This document shows positions 6,168 to 53,525 of a DNA stretch of 64,000 bases, piece after piece. The position numbers and the translations under genes are program-made. Below the pieces are notes generated by a model. That model had not been told where the DNA came from, searched no databases, and saw only the letters and a list, made by a program, of their open reading frames with translations. Position 1 is the first letter of the stretch. Every line of letters starts with the position of its first letter. Source of the stretch: Candidatus Altimarinota bacterium (lineage in GTDB: Bacteria > Patescibacteriota > Gracilibacteria > BD1-5 > UBA6164); the NCBI GenBank assembly GCA_025210615.1, contig JAOARJ010000002.1, forward strand, positions 310,001 through 374,000, written 5' to 3'.

Positions 6168-6470
6168 TAATTTTTGTTATTTTTTTATCTTATAAAATTT
6201 TATTTTCTCTTCTTATTGTTTATTAAAAATTAAAATATTTTTAGTTTACTTTTTGATTTCGTTTAGCCTTATTTTATCCTTTTATTATCTTCTTTTTATA
6301 ATTTCATTAGACTACAAAATACCCTTGTGTATATATCTTATTTAGGTAGTTTTACTTGTCAAGTTTTTTTGTGGTTTTAAGAAAAATTTAATTTTTTATT
6401 TTTTCTTGCAATATTTTCTGTATAATTAGAGTATTAATTATCAGATAAAATATTATTTAATTTTTAATTG
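6168..6470. other. Intergenic region between divergent terminase and sigma-factor genes
   Basis: 303 bp, very AT-rich, with no supported ORF. Its last 65 bp hold the putative ECF promoter of the sigma gene (6407-6436). Nothing else is recognised. Confidence 0.6.
6407..6436 (+). promoter_or_regulatory. Putative ECF-sigma promoter (autoregulatory)
   Basis: TGCAATATTTT, exactly 10 nt, then AGAGTATTA, 34 bp before the sigma start. The same two blocks with the same 10-nt gap occur at 7950-7979 before the secreted coiled-coil gene. Shared by two genes of one cluster, this fits -35 and -10 elements of the sigma factor encoded here. Confidence 0.6.
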
Positions 6471-7037
6471 ATGTTTAAAATATTATTTTGACAGCAGCAA
6501 TCATTTGAAATAATGATTGAAAAAGCTCAAAATTATGATAAAAAATGACTTGAATATATCTATGATAATTTTTCAGATAAAATCTATAAATATATTTTTA
6601 GAAGAGTAAATAACCTAGAAGATGCTGAAAATATAACAAGTATTGTTTGGGAGAGAATTTGTAAATATATTACTAAATTTAACTGAAATAGTAAAGAAAG
6701 ATTCGAAGCTTGGATTATTACCATTTCAAAAAATCAAATTAGCTCATATTATTCAAAAAATAGGATACAAAGTGAATGATTAGAGGAATATCAAGATTTC
6801 AAAGATGAGAATTTAACTCCTGATAAAGTTGCAATAAATAATTCATCACAAGAGTATTTATTAAAAATATTAAATAAACTTCCTGAAAAACAAAGTGAAT
6901 GTATAAAGCTTAAATATTTTGACTGATATAAGAATAAAGAAATTGCAAATATTTTATGAATAAAAGAGCCTTCAGTGGCTTCAAACCTTAATAGAGGATT
7001 AGAAAAAATCAAACTTATTTTAGAAAATAATTATTAA
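6471..7037 (+). CDS. ECF-type RNA polymerase sigma factor (pair 1)
   Basis: 188 aa. The sigma-70 region 2 helix (YIYDNFSDKIYKYIFRRVNNLEDAENIT, residues about 30-57) and region 4 helix-turn-helix (LPEKQSECIKLK ... GYKNKEIANILGIKEPSVASNLNRGLEKIK, about 137-180) are present, while regions 1 and 3 are missing, as in ECF sigmas. Four bases separate it from a membrane protein that is the likely anti-sigma factor. A matching motif precedes both this gene and the 8022 gene. It lies inside the prophage-like segment, so it could be cargo. Confidence 0.85.
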
Positions 7038-7040
7038 ATT

Positions 7041-7919
7041 ATGACAAAAAATATTAAAAAAAATCTCAAAGAAATATGAGATAATACTCCAAAAATGAGT
7101 AAACATTATAACACATATTTGAAAAATAAAGTTCTTAGTTACGCTAATAAAGAAGAGAAAAAAAATATATTTGATATTAATATTTTATTTAAATTATCAT
7201 CTGTTGCACTTGTATTTTTAATTGTATTTAATGTCTTTTTTATGGGATTTTCTAGTGATGATTTTATCGCTAAGGCTTATGAATATCACAAAGAAAAATC
7301 TCAAAATAGTATTACTTACCAATATATAAAAGAGATTTATAAGAGAAACGAAAATAGCAAGCCTCAAGTAACAAAAACGAAAGAATATTTCTTAAATCAG
7401 AAAAATTTATACATCAAAGAATTTGATTTTTGATGAGATATTACTCAAATGTTTGACTGAGAATTATTTTATTCAAATAATCAATATCTAGATAATAAAT
7501 TTTATGAAATAGAAAATATTGAAGAAATTAAAAGAAAAAATAGAGAATCTAAAGTGGAAGAAAAAAGAGCTCTTAGTATCTATGATGCAGTTCTAGATTT
7601 ATCAAAAACAACTTGAGAAACAGCTTTAGATTATTTAGAAACAAGTGATAAACTTACTTTTGATAAAAAAGTAGATAATATTGCAATTTATAAAATAACA
7701 AGTTGAATCAATGTTGAAGAAATTCATTTTGATACAAAAACTTATAAAATAATAAAAATTTTAAGCTATTATTATAATTGAAATTGAGAAAGAGAAAATA
7801 TTTTAGAAAAACAAATTCAAACTGAATACATCAATAAAACAGAAGAAGAAAAAATATTTGATTATCAAAAATATAATTTAAAACCAACAAATATTATCTA
7901 TAAGAAAAGAGCTAAATAA
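7041..7919 (+). CDS. Putative anti-sigma factor, single-pass membrane protein
   Basis: 292 aa, starting 4 bp after the sigma stop. Residues 1-48 are cytoplasmic and charged, about 49-72 form one membrane helix (LSSVALVFLIVFNVFFMG), and the rest is predicted outside. That topology (cytosolic sigma-binding part, one helix, extracytoplasmic sensor) and its position are the only grounds for the anti-sigma call; no zinc-binding HxxxCxxC motif is present. The outer part has alternating strand/helix character (YIKEFDFGGDITQMFDGELFY), reminiscent of LolA-like sensor domains, but this is weak. Confidence 0.55.
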
Positions 7920-7931
7920 AGCTCTTTTTTT
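7906..7931 (+). terminator. Terminator of the sigma/anti-sigma operon
   Basis: AAGAGCT and AGCTCTT arms across the stop codon, followed by seven Ts. Confidence 0.75.
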
Positions 7932-7949
7932 GTTATTTCTTAATTTTTA

Positions 7950-7979
7950 TGCAATATTTTTTAAGCTATCAGAGTATTA
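7950..7979 (+). promoter_or_regulatory. Second copy of the putative ECF promoter
   Basis: TGCAATATTTT-N10-AGAGTATTA, matching 6407-6436 in both blocks and in spacing while the spacer itself differs. It lies 42 bp before the start of the secreted protein gene. Confidence 0.6.
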
Positions 7980-8021
7980 GCTAATGTAACTTATTTTAAT
8001 TTATTATTAATTTTTTATCTT

Positions 8022-8894
8022 ATGAAAAATACAAAAAAAGTTATAGCTAGTGTTTTATTATCTAGCATGTTATTAACAACATCTTCTGCATTAGCCAATA
8101 GTACAAATACTACTACTGAAAATGACAATAGTGTAATAGAAAGTGTTCAAGTTCAAGTTTGGGCAGGACAATTTAGAGAAACTTTAGAAAAAGTAAATCT
8201 TTGGATTGAAAATAATGAAAGAAAATATAATCTTGATTATAGTGATGTAAAAGACAGCTTAAGAGATGTATCTTCTAGAACTCACAATGTTCAAACTGAA
8301 GCTGATTTAAAAGATTTATATGGTGAAGCAAATAGATTATTCGTCCCTATTTATAAAAAAGTTCGTTCTTTAGGATGATATAACTATTATCAAACAAAAA
8401 AACCAAAAGTTAATACTTTTAAGCAAGAAAAAACTAAATTTATTAACAAAATAAAATCTGCTATAAATTGGGGCAGAGAAGAAGGTGAAAAAGAAAATAA
8501 AAACTTTTCAAGTGAAATTTCTAAATTAGAAAGAACTTTAAAAAAAGCTGAAAATTCTAAAAAAGTGGATGATTTAAAATCATTACAACAAGATTTGGAT
8601 AATGTTTATAAAGCTATTACTGGTAGAGAAGTAAAAAGAAATCAAGTTAAAACTCAAACTAGTAAAAATAATACTAAAAAAGAAAATAAACAATCATATT
8701 TATCAAAAAGAATATCTAATTTAAAAACAAATATCAAATCTACAATTGAATATTTTGAATGATTAGATAGAGATTTATCAAATGAAATAGCGAAATTAAA
8801 TGATTTGTATAATAAAGCAGATAAAACAAATAATGATAACGATGTAAAATCAATTTATCAAGAATTAGCAACAATTCAAGATTCTATTAAGTAA
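8022..8894 (+). CDS. Secreted helical coiled-coil protein, likely ECF-sigma target
   Basis: 290 aa. A clear signal peptide (MKNTKKVIASVLLSSMLLTTSSALA, cleavage after about residue 25) precedes a mature protein that is almost entirely charged alpha helix with heptad character (FRETLEKVNLWIENNERKYN; KISNLKTNIKSTIEYFEGLD). No catalytic motif is seen. Most glycines are GGN rather than TGA, as in the highly expressed genes of the window, suggesting high expression. With the shared promoter motif upstream, it is probably an abundant envelope or stress-response protein. It is transcribed alone and ends in a strong terminator. Confidence 0.8.
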
Positions 8895-8931
8895 AAAAGA
8901 CATTGAAAATTACCATTTTTAAGTCATCATT

Positions 8932-8970
8932 TAAAGTAATATTTTAAAACAATATTACTTTATTTTTTAA
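8932..8970 (+). terminator. Terminator of the secreted coiled-coil gene
   Basis: AAAGTAATATT and AATATTACTTT arms (11 bp) with a short loop and T-rich tail, ending 10 bp before the next start codon. Confidence 0.75.
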
Positions 8971-8979
8971 TTAAATTTT

Positions 8980-10529
8980 ATGTTAAACAACAAATTACAA
9001 AATGATTTTATATCAGATTTTCATAATTTAACTCAGCAAAACGCTGAAAAAATATTTGAAAAAATTAAATTTGGAGATGATGATTTTTTTGATAATGAAA
9101 CTAAAAATAGTTTTATTTTATGGCTTAATTCGCATTTGGATGAGATTAAAAATAATTGAGAATATTCTCTGAAAAATGATTGATTTATAATAACTCCTGA
9201 TTTTTGAAAAAAATATTGAGGAGATTTAAATTCTTGAATTTGGGAAAACAATTTTCCATATTATAATGTCCCTAAAAGAAAATTATTACCCTATATTGTA
9301 GAATATGATGAAAATGGTGATATTATTGACCTGAAATGAAGCTTTTACCTTCTACTCCTGAAACTCAAAAAAATATAAAATATAATTTACTTTCAAGTGA
9401 TTCAAGAAAAATAGCTAGTAATATTTACGATGAGCAAGTTGATTATTTTAAAAAAGTAGCAGAAAAATATAAAAACGAAGATAATTTTTTGGATAAGATT
9501 TGAAAAGAATTTGAAAAAATAACTGATTTAGATAGGATAAAAAATTATGGAGAATGTTTAGTTGATACGATTTTTCAAAATAATAAAAACTCTTGTTTTA
9601 ACGCTTATTTAGAAGATAAAAAAATAAAATGATACAAAAAACGGGTTACTGAAAGCGATGATAGAGTAAGTGATATTTGTCGTCATAATGCGAGTCAAGG
9701 ATTTATTCCATTTGAAGATAATTTCATTAGTTGACATAATGCACCTCCTTGACATTACTGATGCAGATGCCATTTGGAGTTTAAAACTGAAGAAAATCTT
9801 GACTTTAATATAAAAAATTATATACTTAAAAGTAAGCAGATTGCTGATTTAATGGAAGAAGAGAGAATTCAAAAAGAGCAAGAAAAGCGTGAAAAAGAAG
9901 CAAAGAAGGAGAGGAAGAAGAAAGAAAGAGAAGAAAAAAATATCAAAAATCATGATATAACAGAATTATTTGAAGAAAAATTAAAAGAAGCGGACAATGA
10001 GACAAATATTTTTAATTATGTTCCAAATAATAAAACTAATTGAAAATTTGACGTAAAAAATAATGAAAATTTTAAAAAATGTGTAGATGAAGATTGATTT
10101 GTTAATTTATATTGAGAAAAAGTAAGGTTAGATGAAGTATGAAACTTTTTTGTTTGATATAACTGAGATAAAAATTGAATAAATATACATTTCATTAATC
10201 TTTGATGAGAAATGTATGAACGCGTAAAAAAATGAACAAAAGATTTAACGGATGAGTTTAGAGATAGGAGATTTTACAAAGCTTGAGCAGTTTATTGTCA
10301 ATTAAAACCCAATTTAAAAACAAAAACGGAAAATAAAAATGTTTTTAAGGAATTAATGAAACAAGCTAAAAATGAAAACATTAATATTGACGATATTTGA
10401 AAAGACTATTTTAACCAACCTAGTAAAACAGAAAAAGAATTTAAAGAAGAAATGAAAAAAGATTTAAATAAAGAAGCAATAAAATTTTTTAATCCCAAAG
10501 TTTATGAAAAAATTAATCCCCCAAAATAA
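8980..10529 (+). pseudogene. MuF-type phage head morphogenesis protein, frameshifted
   Basis: Frame 1 runs 8980-9378 (132 aa). Frame 2 continues from about 9334 to TAA at 10529 (397 aa from ATG 9336). Joining them at GACCTGAAATG (one base short of GAC CCT GAA ATG) restores one protein of about 516 aa. The joined protein has the MuF/SPP1 gp7 core: DDRVSDICRHNASQGFIPF, then GHNAPPGHYGCRCH, with the conserved Cys and His. A Lys/Glu-rich helix and a distinct C-terminal domain (from about 10035; GGEMYERVKKG, FYKAGAVYCQLKPN) follow, as in MuF proteins that carry toxin or effector tails. Glycines are often TGA. Confidence 0.7.
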
Positions 10530-30327: not shown

Positions 30328-30366
30328 AAAAACTCTCTATATTTAAGAGAGCTCTTTTATTATTTT
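30328..30366. terminator. Terminator between convergent genes
   Basis: CTCTCT and AGAGAG arms with flanking A and T runs; usable from both sides. Confidence 0.65.
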
Positions 30367-31424
30367 AATTCATTTTCATTAACTAAAAGTATGATTTGGT
30401 CTGGTTTAAATGTTTCTCATTTTATCGGATGTTTGCTTGTACTAAACCATAAAGCAGGTACTAAATACTCGCTTTTCATCTTATAAACTCTTTCGTAAGT
30501 AAATACAACTTTATCATAAACTATTTCTTTATATCTATCGCTATCAGCAGGCACAACGCTACTAATCATTCTATCCATATCTAAACTTAGTTTTAAACTT
30601 TCTTCATCTTTTAATTTTTCTATCACAAAATCTTCTACTGTCGTAGTTCACATATTTAGTGTAGTGATTTTATAATATTTATACTGCTTCTTTAAATCAG
30701 GAAACTCTCAAAAAAAACTATATTTATAAAGAGTAGGCGGTTTTCAAGAAATATCTTTTTGCATTAGGTTTTCTCTATCAAACTCTTGAAGTCACATTAT
30801 TTCAGGGATAGCTTCATCACTTTCTGGAGCTTCTCCTTTAAGTATTATACTATCTTTTTCCATATTTTTTGCTTCATCAACAACTTCATTCATAGATTCT
30901 ACTGCGAAACTTTCTATTTCAGCATCTTCAAAGACTATATTATTTTTTTCTTCTGAAAAATTTTCTGGTATAGCTGATTTTGGCACAGATTTTACTCAAA
31001 AATCTGCACTATTATTAGGCATAAAATCATTTTCTGGAGCATCACTCATCATTGTCATAGCTCCTCATCAGCTTCTTAATCAATAGTTTATATTATCTTT
31101 TGTATTATTTAAACTTCCTGAATTAATAATTACAACAGCACTTAATCAAACTACTGCTCATCAAGTTAAAAATCCTGTTAAAATTTGTACAAAGTTTTTT
31201 AAACTAAATTTATTTCTAACTCAATATTTCGCTTCTACATATAATCTTTGTCTCAAATCATTTTTAAACTTTTCACTCATTTTTATTTGAGGTTTTATTT
31301 CCATCATTTTTTCTAATGCTTTTTTAAGCTCTTCTTCTCTCCCCTTTAAAGTCGGGTCTATATCATAGATTTCATTTAAAATTTCTTCTATATTTTGTTT
31401 TATATTATTAATATTTTCATTCAT
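30360..31424 (-). CDS. Putative anti-sigma factor (pair 2)
   Basis: 354 aa, 2 bp after the sigma factor at 31427. The cytosolic N-terminal helical part (about residues 1-72) ends in a basic segment. One membrane helix follows (FVQILTGFLTGGAVVGLSAVVII, about 76-98), then an acidic linker and an extracytoplasmic domain (PPTLYKYSFFGEFPDLKKQYKYYKI; WFSTSKHPIKG). No zinc motif. The anti-sigma role is inferred from position and topology, as for the pair at 6471/7041. Confidence 0.6.
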
Positions 31425-31426
31425 AC

Positions 31427-31990
31427 TTAAAAAAATTTAGCGAGTAATAATAAAGCAAGGACGATATCTCCATTTACTTTTGATAGTGTTCTTGATACGA
31501 TTTTTTTACAATTTGATACGCTTTTTCAGCTTATTTGCGATATTTCTTTATAAGATAATCCATCCCAGATTCTCATAATAAGAATATCTCTTTGCTCTGT
31601 TTTTAATGTATTAAAATACTTAAAAACTTCTTTTAATTTTTGTTTATTATCGAAATTTGCTCAAAAATCTATTTCTTCAACTTTAATATCCAAATAATCT
31701 TCTAGTGTTACATCTTCTTTTTTCTTTCTATAAAAGTCAATTATTTTATTGTGAGCAATTCTATAAATCCACGCTTGAAAAGATGCCTTTTCTCACATTT
31801 TAAAACTTTTTATTTTATCTAAGGCTTTAAAAAAGGTTTCACTTGTCAAATCTTCCGCCATCTCTCTATCAAATGTTTTAGAAAAAATATAGTTATAGAT
31901 TTTTTCGCTATACATATCATAAAGATAAGCAAAATTTTCTTTATTTCATTTTTGACAATCCTCTATAAAAGCGATTTCGCGATTATCCAT
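31427..31990 (-). CDS. ECF-type sigma factor (pair 2)
   Basis: 187 aa. Region 2 (FAYLYDMYSEKIYNYIFSKTFDREMAEDLTSETFFKAL) and region 4 (LKTEQRDILIMRIWDGLSYKEISQISGKSVSNCKKIVSRTL) are intact, with no other sigma regions. It forms a two-gene operon with the membrane protein downstream. More typical in sequence than the sigma factor at 6471. No matching copy of the TGCAATATTTT/AGAGTATTA motif was seen upstream, so its promoter specificity should differ. Confidence 0.88.
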
Positions 31991-32111
31991 ATTTTTAAGT
32001 TATAAATTATTTCCCTAATTGTACTTATTTTAACGAAAAAATAAAATAAAAGTGACAAGAAAACATTTTTTTATATAATCAAATATAATTATAATCTAAT
32101 AAAAATTGATT

Positions 32112-34737: not shown

Positions 34738-34768
34738 AAAAAGCTAGAAATTAATCTAGCTTTTATTT
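34737..34768. terminator. Bidirectional terminator
   Basis: AAAGCTAGA and TCTAGCTTT arms with A- and T-rich flanks; it also overlaps the stop of the convergent gene. Confidence 0.7.
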
Positions 34769-35779
34769 AATCCAAATTCTTCAATTATATCATCATTCTA
34801 AATCTGGATCTTCATCACAATGTCTTATTAAATAAGGAGAACTTGCATTAAGATTTGCCCAACCATACACACTTCATGAAATAGAATAATATCTATGATA
34901 ATCAGTATGGTAAGGTAAACAATTATTAAGTGTTGTTGACCTATTTGACGAGAAACTTTCATTATTAGCACATTCTATTGTTCCAGAATAACTTCATCAG
35001 ATAATTAAATAACTAGAAAAATTTGATATATTTCTATGATAAAAAGTAAACCGATTTCAATTTAATTTTTTACAAGTAAATTTTAAAATACTAGAATTAT
35101 TAAGTCATAATTTTTTTATTCATACCATATAATTTGAAAACAATGAAGGAGTTCATATTTCAGTATTATATAAATCTGGTTGTAAAATATTTTGTGTTAT
35201 ATTTAAAGCTAAAGTCCAGCCTCATCAACTCATATCACAATAAACTCTAAATTTATCTGTTGTATTTCATCAATTAGGATCTATCCAATAATCTCAATTT
35301 CCTATACTTCATCAATTATCTAGAATATGTTTACATGATTCTCATGGATTATCAATAGTTCATAGTTTAGCCAATTTACAAACTTTTCAATCTACAACAT
35401 ATCAATCAGCGCAAGTTTGAACAGTACATTCTAAGTAATCATCAACTCAATTCCACGTTTTTGTAGCTAAGGTCGCATTATTTTTCTCAGGAGTACAATC
35501 TTGTACACTATTTATACAAGCAGAAGTTATTTTATCCCAGTGTTTATTAACATCACTACATTGTCATAAACAATTTCAATTATTATCGCACAAATTTCAA
35601 GTTACATATAATTTTCAATTTAATTTTATATTATCTCAACTAACATCTATTTTATCAGTTAAACTAGAAATATTTGTCCAGGTTAAATTATCTAAAACTT
35701 CTCAGGAGTTTTTATTTATTCAGTTTAATGCAGAACTTAATCAAAAAATTCACACCAAAAAAACTGATATTCAAAACAA
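34763..35779 (-). CDS. Secreted fibrinogen-like domain protein, paralog 2
   Basis: 338 aa from TTG at 35779. Signal peptide (FGISVFLVGIFGLSSA), the shared N-terminal module (NSGEVLDNLTW ... SLTDKIDV ... IKLNGKLYVTG), a Cys-rich spacer (CSDVNKHWDKITSACINS; CTVQTCADGYVVDGKVC) and a fibrinogen-like C-domain (DYWIDPNGGNTTDKFRVYCD, then MSGGGWTLAL). An AAGGAGG site lies upstream, but the GTG it best positions is in another frame that stops after 25 codons. The start is therefore uncertain and the signal peptide may be frameshifted. Confidence 0.7.
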
Positions 35780-35960
35780 TATCCACCTTAATTTCCTCCT
35801 TACGCCTTTCTTGTGACTAGCCTTTTTTGTGACTCTTTATTCACACTCATAAGCCAATCTTTTACTTATAATATAATAAATACTTATATAAAATATTGTA
35901 GATTTTTTTCTTTTTCTGTCAAGAGTAAAATCTCACTTTTTTTATTTTTTGGTTGACAAA

Positions 35961-35992
35961 ATTAAAACTCTAGTTAATTCTAGAGTTTTTTA
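35961..35992 (-). terminator. Terminator of paralog 3
   Basis: AAAACTCTAG and CTAGAGTTTT arms (10 bp), loop TTAATT. Confidence 0.75.
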
Positions 35993-36622
35993 ATTTCAAC
36001 ATTTTACTTCAGATATACCAACAAATCAAGAATTACTTACCCATTCCCAATTTTCAGAGCAGTTATATATATAAAATCAAGGATCTGAAGAATTTCAAAC
36101 AGTTGCTGTAACTTTTCAATAATTATACCCATATTCTTTACAAATACCTGTTCAAATATTTATGTAATTTTCTTCTCACCAATAATCTCAATGTCAACAA
36201 GTTCAAGTCAATCCTCCTTCTCAACCTCTTCATACAAAAATCCATTTTCAAGAATATCTAGGGCTCGAAACCGTATTTGTATAATTATTGACAACACAAG
36301 TTCATCAAGATACATGATATCATAAACCACAAGTTTTACAAGACAACGAAGCGTTATCCCAGTATTCTCAATCCAAGCAACTTCATAAACATTTTTTTAC
36401 TCATCAAATCACGCTACATAATTCTCAAGTTACATATAGTTTTCAATTTAATTTTATATTACTAGAGCCAACATCTATTTTATTAGTAAGACTAGAAATA
36501 TTTGTCCATGTAGAGTTATCTAATACCTCTCAAGAGTTTTTACTTATGGTAATAGCTCAAATAAAATTCGCTAAGTATATTCAGCTAAAAATTATTGATA
36601 AAAATAGAATAAACTTTTTCAT
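35990..36622 (-). CDS. Secreted Cys/Gly-rich protein sharing the fibrinogen-family N-module, paralog 3
   Basis: 210 aa. Signal peptide (MKKFILFLSIIFSGIYLANF) and shared module (NSGEVLDNSTW ... SLTNKIDV ... IKLNGKLYVTG). The C-terminal half differs from the other paralogs: it has about ten cysteines (CLGSCLDGEYWDNASLSCKTC, then GGTCVVNN) and Gly/Tyr-rich sequence (YGYNYGKVTATVGNSSDPG), and the FRVYCDM fibrinogen core is absent. This suggests modular exchange of C-termini behind a conserved export and anchor module. Glycines are mostly TGA. Confidence 0.75.
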
Positions 36623-52688: not shown

Positions 52689-53525
52689 TTATTTTATAAA
52701 TAATTCTGTTGGTTCAGGACTAGGTTCCCGCACACTTCCATTTGGTCAAAATCAAATATTAGAATAGTTCCGATAACTTCCTGTTCATGAGCGTCAACCA
52801 ACTTGTGCATCATATTTACAATAGTTTAATCAAAACCAATAATAATAGTATGTGTCATTTGTAGGCTCTACAGTATATATCATTTTTATCATATATTCAC
52901 TATGTCATGTACATTTCCGATGAGAACGAGTTGTATCAACATTTTTTTCAACCTGTCAATTTAAAACTTTTTCATAGCTTTGTCATCAAATTTTTAACAT
53001 TATATTATTTGCCGCCATATTAAACTGATTTGGATTAAAACAATCTATGTTAGAATTTTTTACTATAGTTTGTGTTGTAACACAACTTGAAGCATCAGTA
53101 GCACTGTAATTTCAAATTATATTTACATATCTAGTCCGCCCTCATCAATTAGTCGTCATATCACAATACACTTTAAAAGCATTTCCAGTATATCAATCAG
53201 GCTTTATATAATATTCTTTATCTACATCAACTCACTTACCTTTTAAATCTAAACAAGATTTTCAGGGATTAGTAATAGTTCATTCAATACTATCTCCCAA
53301 GCAAAATCAAGAATTATCACAAATTTTTCAAGTTACATATAACTTTCAATTTAGTTTTATATCAGCTCAAGAAACATCTATTTTATTAGTTAAACTAGAT
53401 ATATTTTCCCAAGTAGTATTATCTAAAACTTCTCAAGAGTTTTTATTTATAGTTATAGCGCTAATAAAATTAGCTAAATATATTCAGCTTAATATTAAAC
53501 TTAGAAACAATATAATTTTCTTCAT
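52689..53525 (-). CDS. Secreted fibrinogen-like domain protein, paralog 4
   Basis: 278 aa, complete. Signal peptide (MKKIILFLSLILSGIYLANF), shared module (NSGEVLDNTTW ... SLTNKIDV ... IKLNGKLYVTG), then a fibrinogen-like domain (EYYIKPDGYTGNAFKVYCDM, TTNGGGRTRYVN) with cysteines for disulfides (SSCVTTQ, NIDCFNP, HRKCTGH, LNYCKYD). The first 140 residues are nearly identical to paralog 1 at the window start. Trp to Arg in GGGWT/GGGRT is a small change in the signature. Probably exported and surface-bound. Confidence 0.82.

Follow-up and report, generated by a model that had tools for sequence, protein, structure and literature searches.

The window analysed here, i.e. the whole stretch of 64,000 nt from an uncultured Gracilibacteria-type bacterium with a small genome, carries a conserved bipartite promoter that, judging from its sequence and distribution, is real and common to an ECF sigma system, probably autoregulated, and to one secreted target. 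We consider it very probable (roughly 0.85) that this locus is an autoregulated ECF sigma/anti-sigma operon with a single secreted target, read from two promoters. Searches of part of the open literature brought up no work on Gracilibacteria ECF sigma factors, and almost none on alternative sigma factors of these bacteria, which use genetic code 25. The three genes and their promoters (the module) provide a sigma–promoter pair with an unusual recognition code, which can be tested in vitro without culture.

A bipartite motif upstream of two genes

The features of the module are the following:
6407..6436, plus strand: Promoter 1 (sigma operon), exact match, -35 TGCAATATTTT, spacer CTGTATAATT, -10 AGAGTATTA
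6421..6426, plus strand: TATAAT within the Promoter 1 spacer, a possible nested housekeeping -10
6471..7037, plus strand: ECF sigma factor of 188 aa (code 25), from Pfam, NCBIfam and solved relatives
7041..7919, plus strand: presumed membrane anti-sigma factor of 292 aa, from its position 3 nt behind the sigma gene and its sequence layout
7900..7933, plus strand: intrinsic terminator, within which the anti-sigma gene ends; the sole terminator-like site in 6200-9000
7950..7979, plus strand: Promoter 2 (target), exact match, boxes as in Promoter 1, spacer TTAAGCTATC
8022..8894, plus strand: target, a secreted protein of 290 aa, from its reading frame and an N-terminal signal-peptide-like stretch

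The original prediction placed a bipartite motif with identical spacing before the sigma gene and before the secreted gene, and TGCAATATTTT-N10-AGAGTATTA is indeed present at both places without a mismatch (6407-6436 and 7950-7979, both on the plus strand). The distances to the ATG codons at 6471 and 8022 are 34 and 42 nt respectively. The genome to which the window belongs (1.25 Mb, 96% complete) contains these two exact copies and no third, for an expectation of about 7e-5 copies genome-wide under a third-order Markov model; the reversed pattern, used as a control, gave 0 exact copies genome-wide. When up to 3 mismatches are allowed, 3 matches are observed in the window versus a mean of 0.20 in window shuffles, and the same tolerance adds just 4 weak matches in the whole genome, each overlapping another gene.

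The DNA of the window is about 75% AT, and the pair does not stand out there if matching bases are simply counted: an identity of at least 23/30 is reached by 49 of the 1485 upstream pairs. Because such matches are common between upstream regions of this composition, the plain 23/30 test is insufficient. With words weighted by their rarity the motif pair ranks first among the 1485 upstream pairs of the window; in 6000 simulated pairs its score was never reached.

Conservation of the module in a second genus

The decisive support for the motif is G014, a genome of the same family but a different genus (uncultured Candidatus Gracilibacteria, public record CAJXJP010000052.1), in which the two same sites stand ahead of the two same genes. 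G014 carries the whole module, with identities in the alignments of 88% for sigma, 75% for the anti-sigma candidate and 67% for the target. The motif is found at both equivalent places; its copy before the target is unchanged, and that before sigma differs by one base. Among 338 genomes of the class the 19-base motif (the first base of the second box being left free) occurs 4 times, at our two sites and at the two G014 equivalents. A clear homologue of the anti-sigma candidate is present in 2 of 353 genomes (a third match is weak and partial) and a homologue of the target in 2 of 99, in both cases our genome and G014. The claim that the sigma and secreted genes share a promoter is thus supported: the sites are kept across genera, are confined to genomes bearing the module and are spaced like ECF promoters.

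Between the two genomes the target promoters are identical at 20/20 positions of the boxes and at 3/10 of the spacer. Within either genome, the sigma and target promoters are alike in little beyond the boxes. This is what one would expect of two promoters whose two boxes are all recognised by a single protein. In the sigma promoter, conservation in G014 extends over the entire region, so that the boxes do not stand out from it by themselves. The genes flanking the module differ on both sides between the two genomes, and the module therefore stands alone as a unit in this comparison, which rests on two genomes. A phage origin was considered and discarded, as no viral contig bearing the motif or a relative of the sigma factor was found.

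Architecture of the promoters

The element is readable as TGCAAT-N17-AGTATT, a layout that is that of ECF promoters, and at both promoters the -35 TGCAAT is followed by ATTTT. The -35 element of SigW, ATTGAAACCTTT (PMC8103513), resembles TTGCAATATTTT of the present promoters. As first defined, ECF sigma factors had target promoters carrying AAC (-35) and CGT (-10), a trait later dropped as defining (PMC8103513). These triplets are absent from the boxes TGCAAT and AGTATT; the promoter code therefore appears diverged from AAC/CGT.

The spacer with TATAAT is identical in the sigma promoters of the two genomes and absent from both target promoters. In the window, TATAAT is found upstream of genes in 29/55 cases and inside genes in 11/55, and in 20 on the opposite strand upstream. 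A weak housekeeping start may thus be nested in the spacer of the sigma promoter, from which it could seed a feedback loop.

Could both sites be ordinary housekeeping promoters (TTGCAA or ATGCAA, N17, GAGTAT), alike through the AT-richness of the genome? TTGCAA about 17 nt before TATAAT does occur elsewhere in our genome (e.g. C3:3254, C5:102092), and GAGTAT shares with a -10 element its A at position 2 and its T at position 6. But GAGTAT matches TATAAT at just 3/6 positions and is nevertheless identical at all four sites, GAGTATTA with TGCAATATTTT is found nowhere else in 338 genomes, and a scan with the housekeeping consensus lists neither site. We therefore judge this explanation improbable. 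To the same low degree we credit the idea that the boxes are sites of another regulator (a repressor, an activator or a different sigma factor) and not of the neighbouring ECF sigma. Binding of this sigma to the boxes is itself deduced, and the genome holds at least two more ECF sigma genes; yet the motif is confined to the two genomes that hold this sigma, at -35/-10 spacing immediately ahead of the gene starts, the second ECF sigma of the window has its own, different promoter, and the boxes are lacking at the third ECF sigma gene, which follows directly on another gene. A chance match in low-complexity DNA, or copying of the upstream regions by local duplication, could draw on the frequency of plain 23/30 matches but is scarcely credible given the rarity-weighted rank (1/1485, 0/6000 simulations), the retention of both sites in another genus, where the target spacer has changed, and the little similarity outside the boxes that would indicate a copied stretch.

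The three gene products

The genes of the module are read with code 25 (TGA = Gly), and the sigma gene has an alternative start in an in-frame TTG at 6468. In the product of 6471-7037, residues 31-98 match Pfam Sigma70_r2 and residues 128-180 match Sigma70_r4_2, both over cut-off; NCBIfam sigma70-ECF is also over cut-off, an agreement at the level of the superfamily. These assignments bear out the prediction of an ECF sigma factor in a CPR bacterium. Sigma2 and sigma4 are its only domains, as in the ECF group (group IV). The linker between the two Pfam matches is about 30 residues long, i.e. shorter than the 50 residues of the original ECF definition (PMC8103513). SigW is the best full-length match among solved structures. 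With NCBIfam TIGR02952 (BldN family ECF) the score is 113.5 bits, below the curated cut-off of 206.45.

The product of 7041-7919 is presumed to be the anti-sigma factor from its position and layout: a short N-terminal part (about 46 aa) precedes a single hydrophobic segment, at about residues 47-69, and a large part outside the membrane follows. No Pfam or NCBIfam family, known anti-sigma families included, is matched over cut-off, and a predicted structure (mean pLDDT 40) was unusable and was discarded. The terminator after this gene is conserved (z of -4.4 in our genome and -3.9 in G014), therefore the target needs its own promoter.

The target had been described as a secreted coiled-coil protein. 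Secretion agrees with our reading, the coiled coil does not: AlphaFold2 (mean pLDDT 64) predicts three three-helix bundles with loose linkers between them, so that a long coiled coil is improbable. With low-to-moderate confidence the target would thus be a series of tandem three-helix bundles. Its fold has no significant match in the PDB. The G014 form is longer (382 aa) and has an additional repeat.

Extent of the regulon

The original prediction expected the consensus to retrieve a whole regulon. This was not the case: exact and relaxed scans of our genome and of G014 leave only these two sites as convincing ones ahead of genes. A wider regulon under TGCAAT-N18-GTATTA was tried and rejected, with 14 matches in our genome at up to one mismatch versus 10 for the reversed pattern, most of them inside genes; one intergenic site (L064), 34 nt before an ORF of 226 aa, was unconvincing. 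A looser pattern gave 42 matches in our genome versus 17 for its control. Among these matches, which were inspected in part, a single dispersed repeat accounts for seven, and others look like housekeeping TTGCAA/TATAAT promoters. On this evidence two promoters would make up the regulon; the consensus is built from four sites, and further degenerate sites may exist.

We also noted that a 28-base sequence, TACAATATTTTATATAAGTATTTATTAT, recurs identically at C2:83, C2:71012, C4:1715, C4:345873 (window 35873-35900, minus strand), C5:23633 and C10:21079, among others. It is either a dispersed repeat or a shared promoter.

A proposed switch

We propose that the membrane anti-sigma factor would hold the sigma factor until a signal from the envelope or the outside frees it. 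The freed sigma would then take RNA polymerase to the two promoters sharing -35 and -10. One of them would drive the sigma/anti-sigma operon, creating positive feedback together with its own brake, and the other, behind the terminator, would drive one secreted protein of tandem helical bundles. The scheme would be completed by basal initiation of a housekeeping type at the TATAAT in the spacer of the sigma promoter. Binding by sigma, the function of the anti-sigma factor, the signal, autoregulation and a place of the target at the cell surface are all inferred. In relatives, other ECF sigma genes too share a private promoter with a secreted gene behind the anti-sigma gene.

The scheme resembles SigW-RsiW of B. 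subtilis and RpoE-RseA of E. coli, in which the sigma factor likewise has sigma2 and sigma4 only, the anti-sigma gene lies directly behind, and -35/-10 elements with ECF spacing precede the sigma operon and a target. It differs from them by a promoter without AAC and CGT, by a regulon of seemingly two promoters instead of dozens, and by an anti-sigma candidate that matches no known family.

A second ECF sigma factor and its promoter

The window contains a second ECF sigma factor with these features:
31427-31990, minus strand: second ECF sigma gene, about 31% identical to the sigma of 6471-7037
30360-31424: anti-sigma-like gene of the second ECF sigma
32032-32058, minus strand: promoter of the second sigma, TTGTCAC-N16-CGTT

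In 10 related genomes TTGTCAC-N16-CGTT gives 35 matches versus 3 for the reversed pattern. In most cases a gene starts 5-70 nt further on, either the sigma gene itself or one for a protein with a signal-peptide-like N terminus; a PF09826 beta-propeller protein and a SIMPL-domain protein are among the targets. The distribution is that of a putative class-wide ECF regulon of secreted proteins under this promoter. Near-matches also precede other secreted or membrane proteins of our genome. At one mismatch the pattern gives 28 matches there and the control 48; as the count is not above the control, single near-match sites need proof. The PF09826 beta-propeller gene of our genome (L139; G000:C6:61769-64006, minus strand) carries TTGTCAC-N16-TGTT at a distance of 42 nt from its ATG; in relatives, sigma and anti-sigma genes with the same promoter stand immediately ahead of the propeller gene.

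As in the module, the genes for sigma, anti-sigma and a secreted target follow one another in this group, and in several relatives the sigma promoter is repeated before the target. The layout of the promoters is the same but the boxes are different, and the group has a multi-gene secreted set whereas the module sigma seems to have two promoters. The two groups differ in the sigma4 recognition helix, which fits their different -35 words. TTGTCAC-N16-CGTT thus offers a consensus that retrieves sets of secreted proteins genome after genome, making envelope signalling accessible from sequence. Only tentatively, and with the odds somewhat against it, do we extend the reading to a self-contained three-gene ECF cassette of private, non-AAC/CGT specificity, present in two Gracilibacteria genera amid different neighbours and dedicated to one secreted helical protein whose number of repeats varies, alongside this separate class-wide regulon.

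Other loci

The third ECF sigma gene (L047:210-2736; G000:C4:172500-177000) is directly behind the gene of a helical protein of 509 aa, membrane-anchored or secreted, and is followed by a short presumed anti-sigma gene. Kinship between the 509 aa protein and the target of the module was looked for and none was found.

Behind the module in our genome, but not in G014, a gene on the plus strand (window 9336-10529) encodes a possible polymorphic toxin, in which one part is weakly Phage_Mu_F-like and the C-terminal domain matches Ntox44 over cut-off. Further on, three secreted proteins encoded on the minus strand (window 34763-36622 and 52689-53525) have a near-identical N-terminal part (KNSGEVLDN.TW.NISSLT.KIDV...IKLNGKLYVTG) and different C-terminal parts, as would be seen in a family of surface proteins with exchanged tips.
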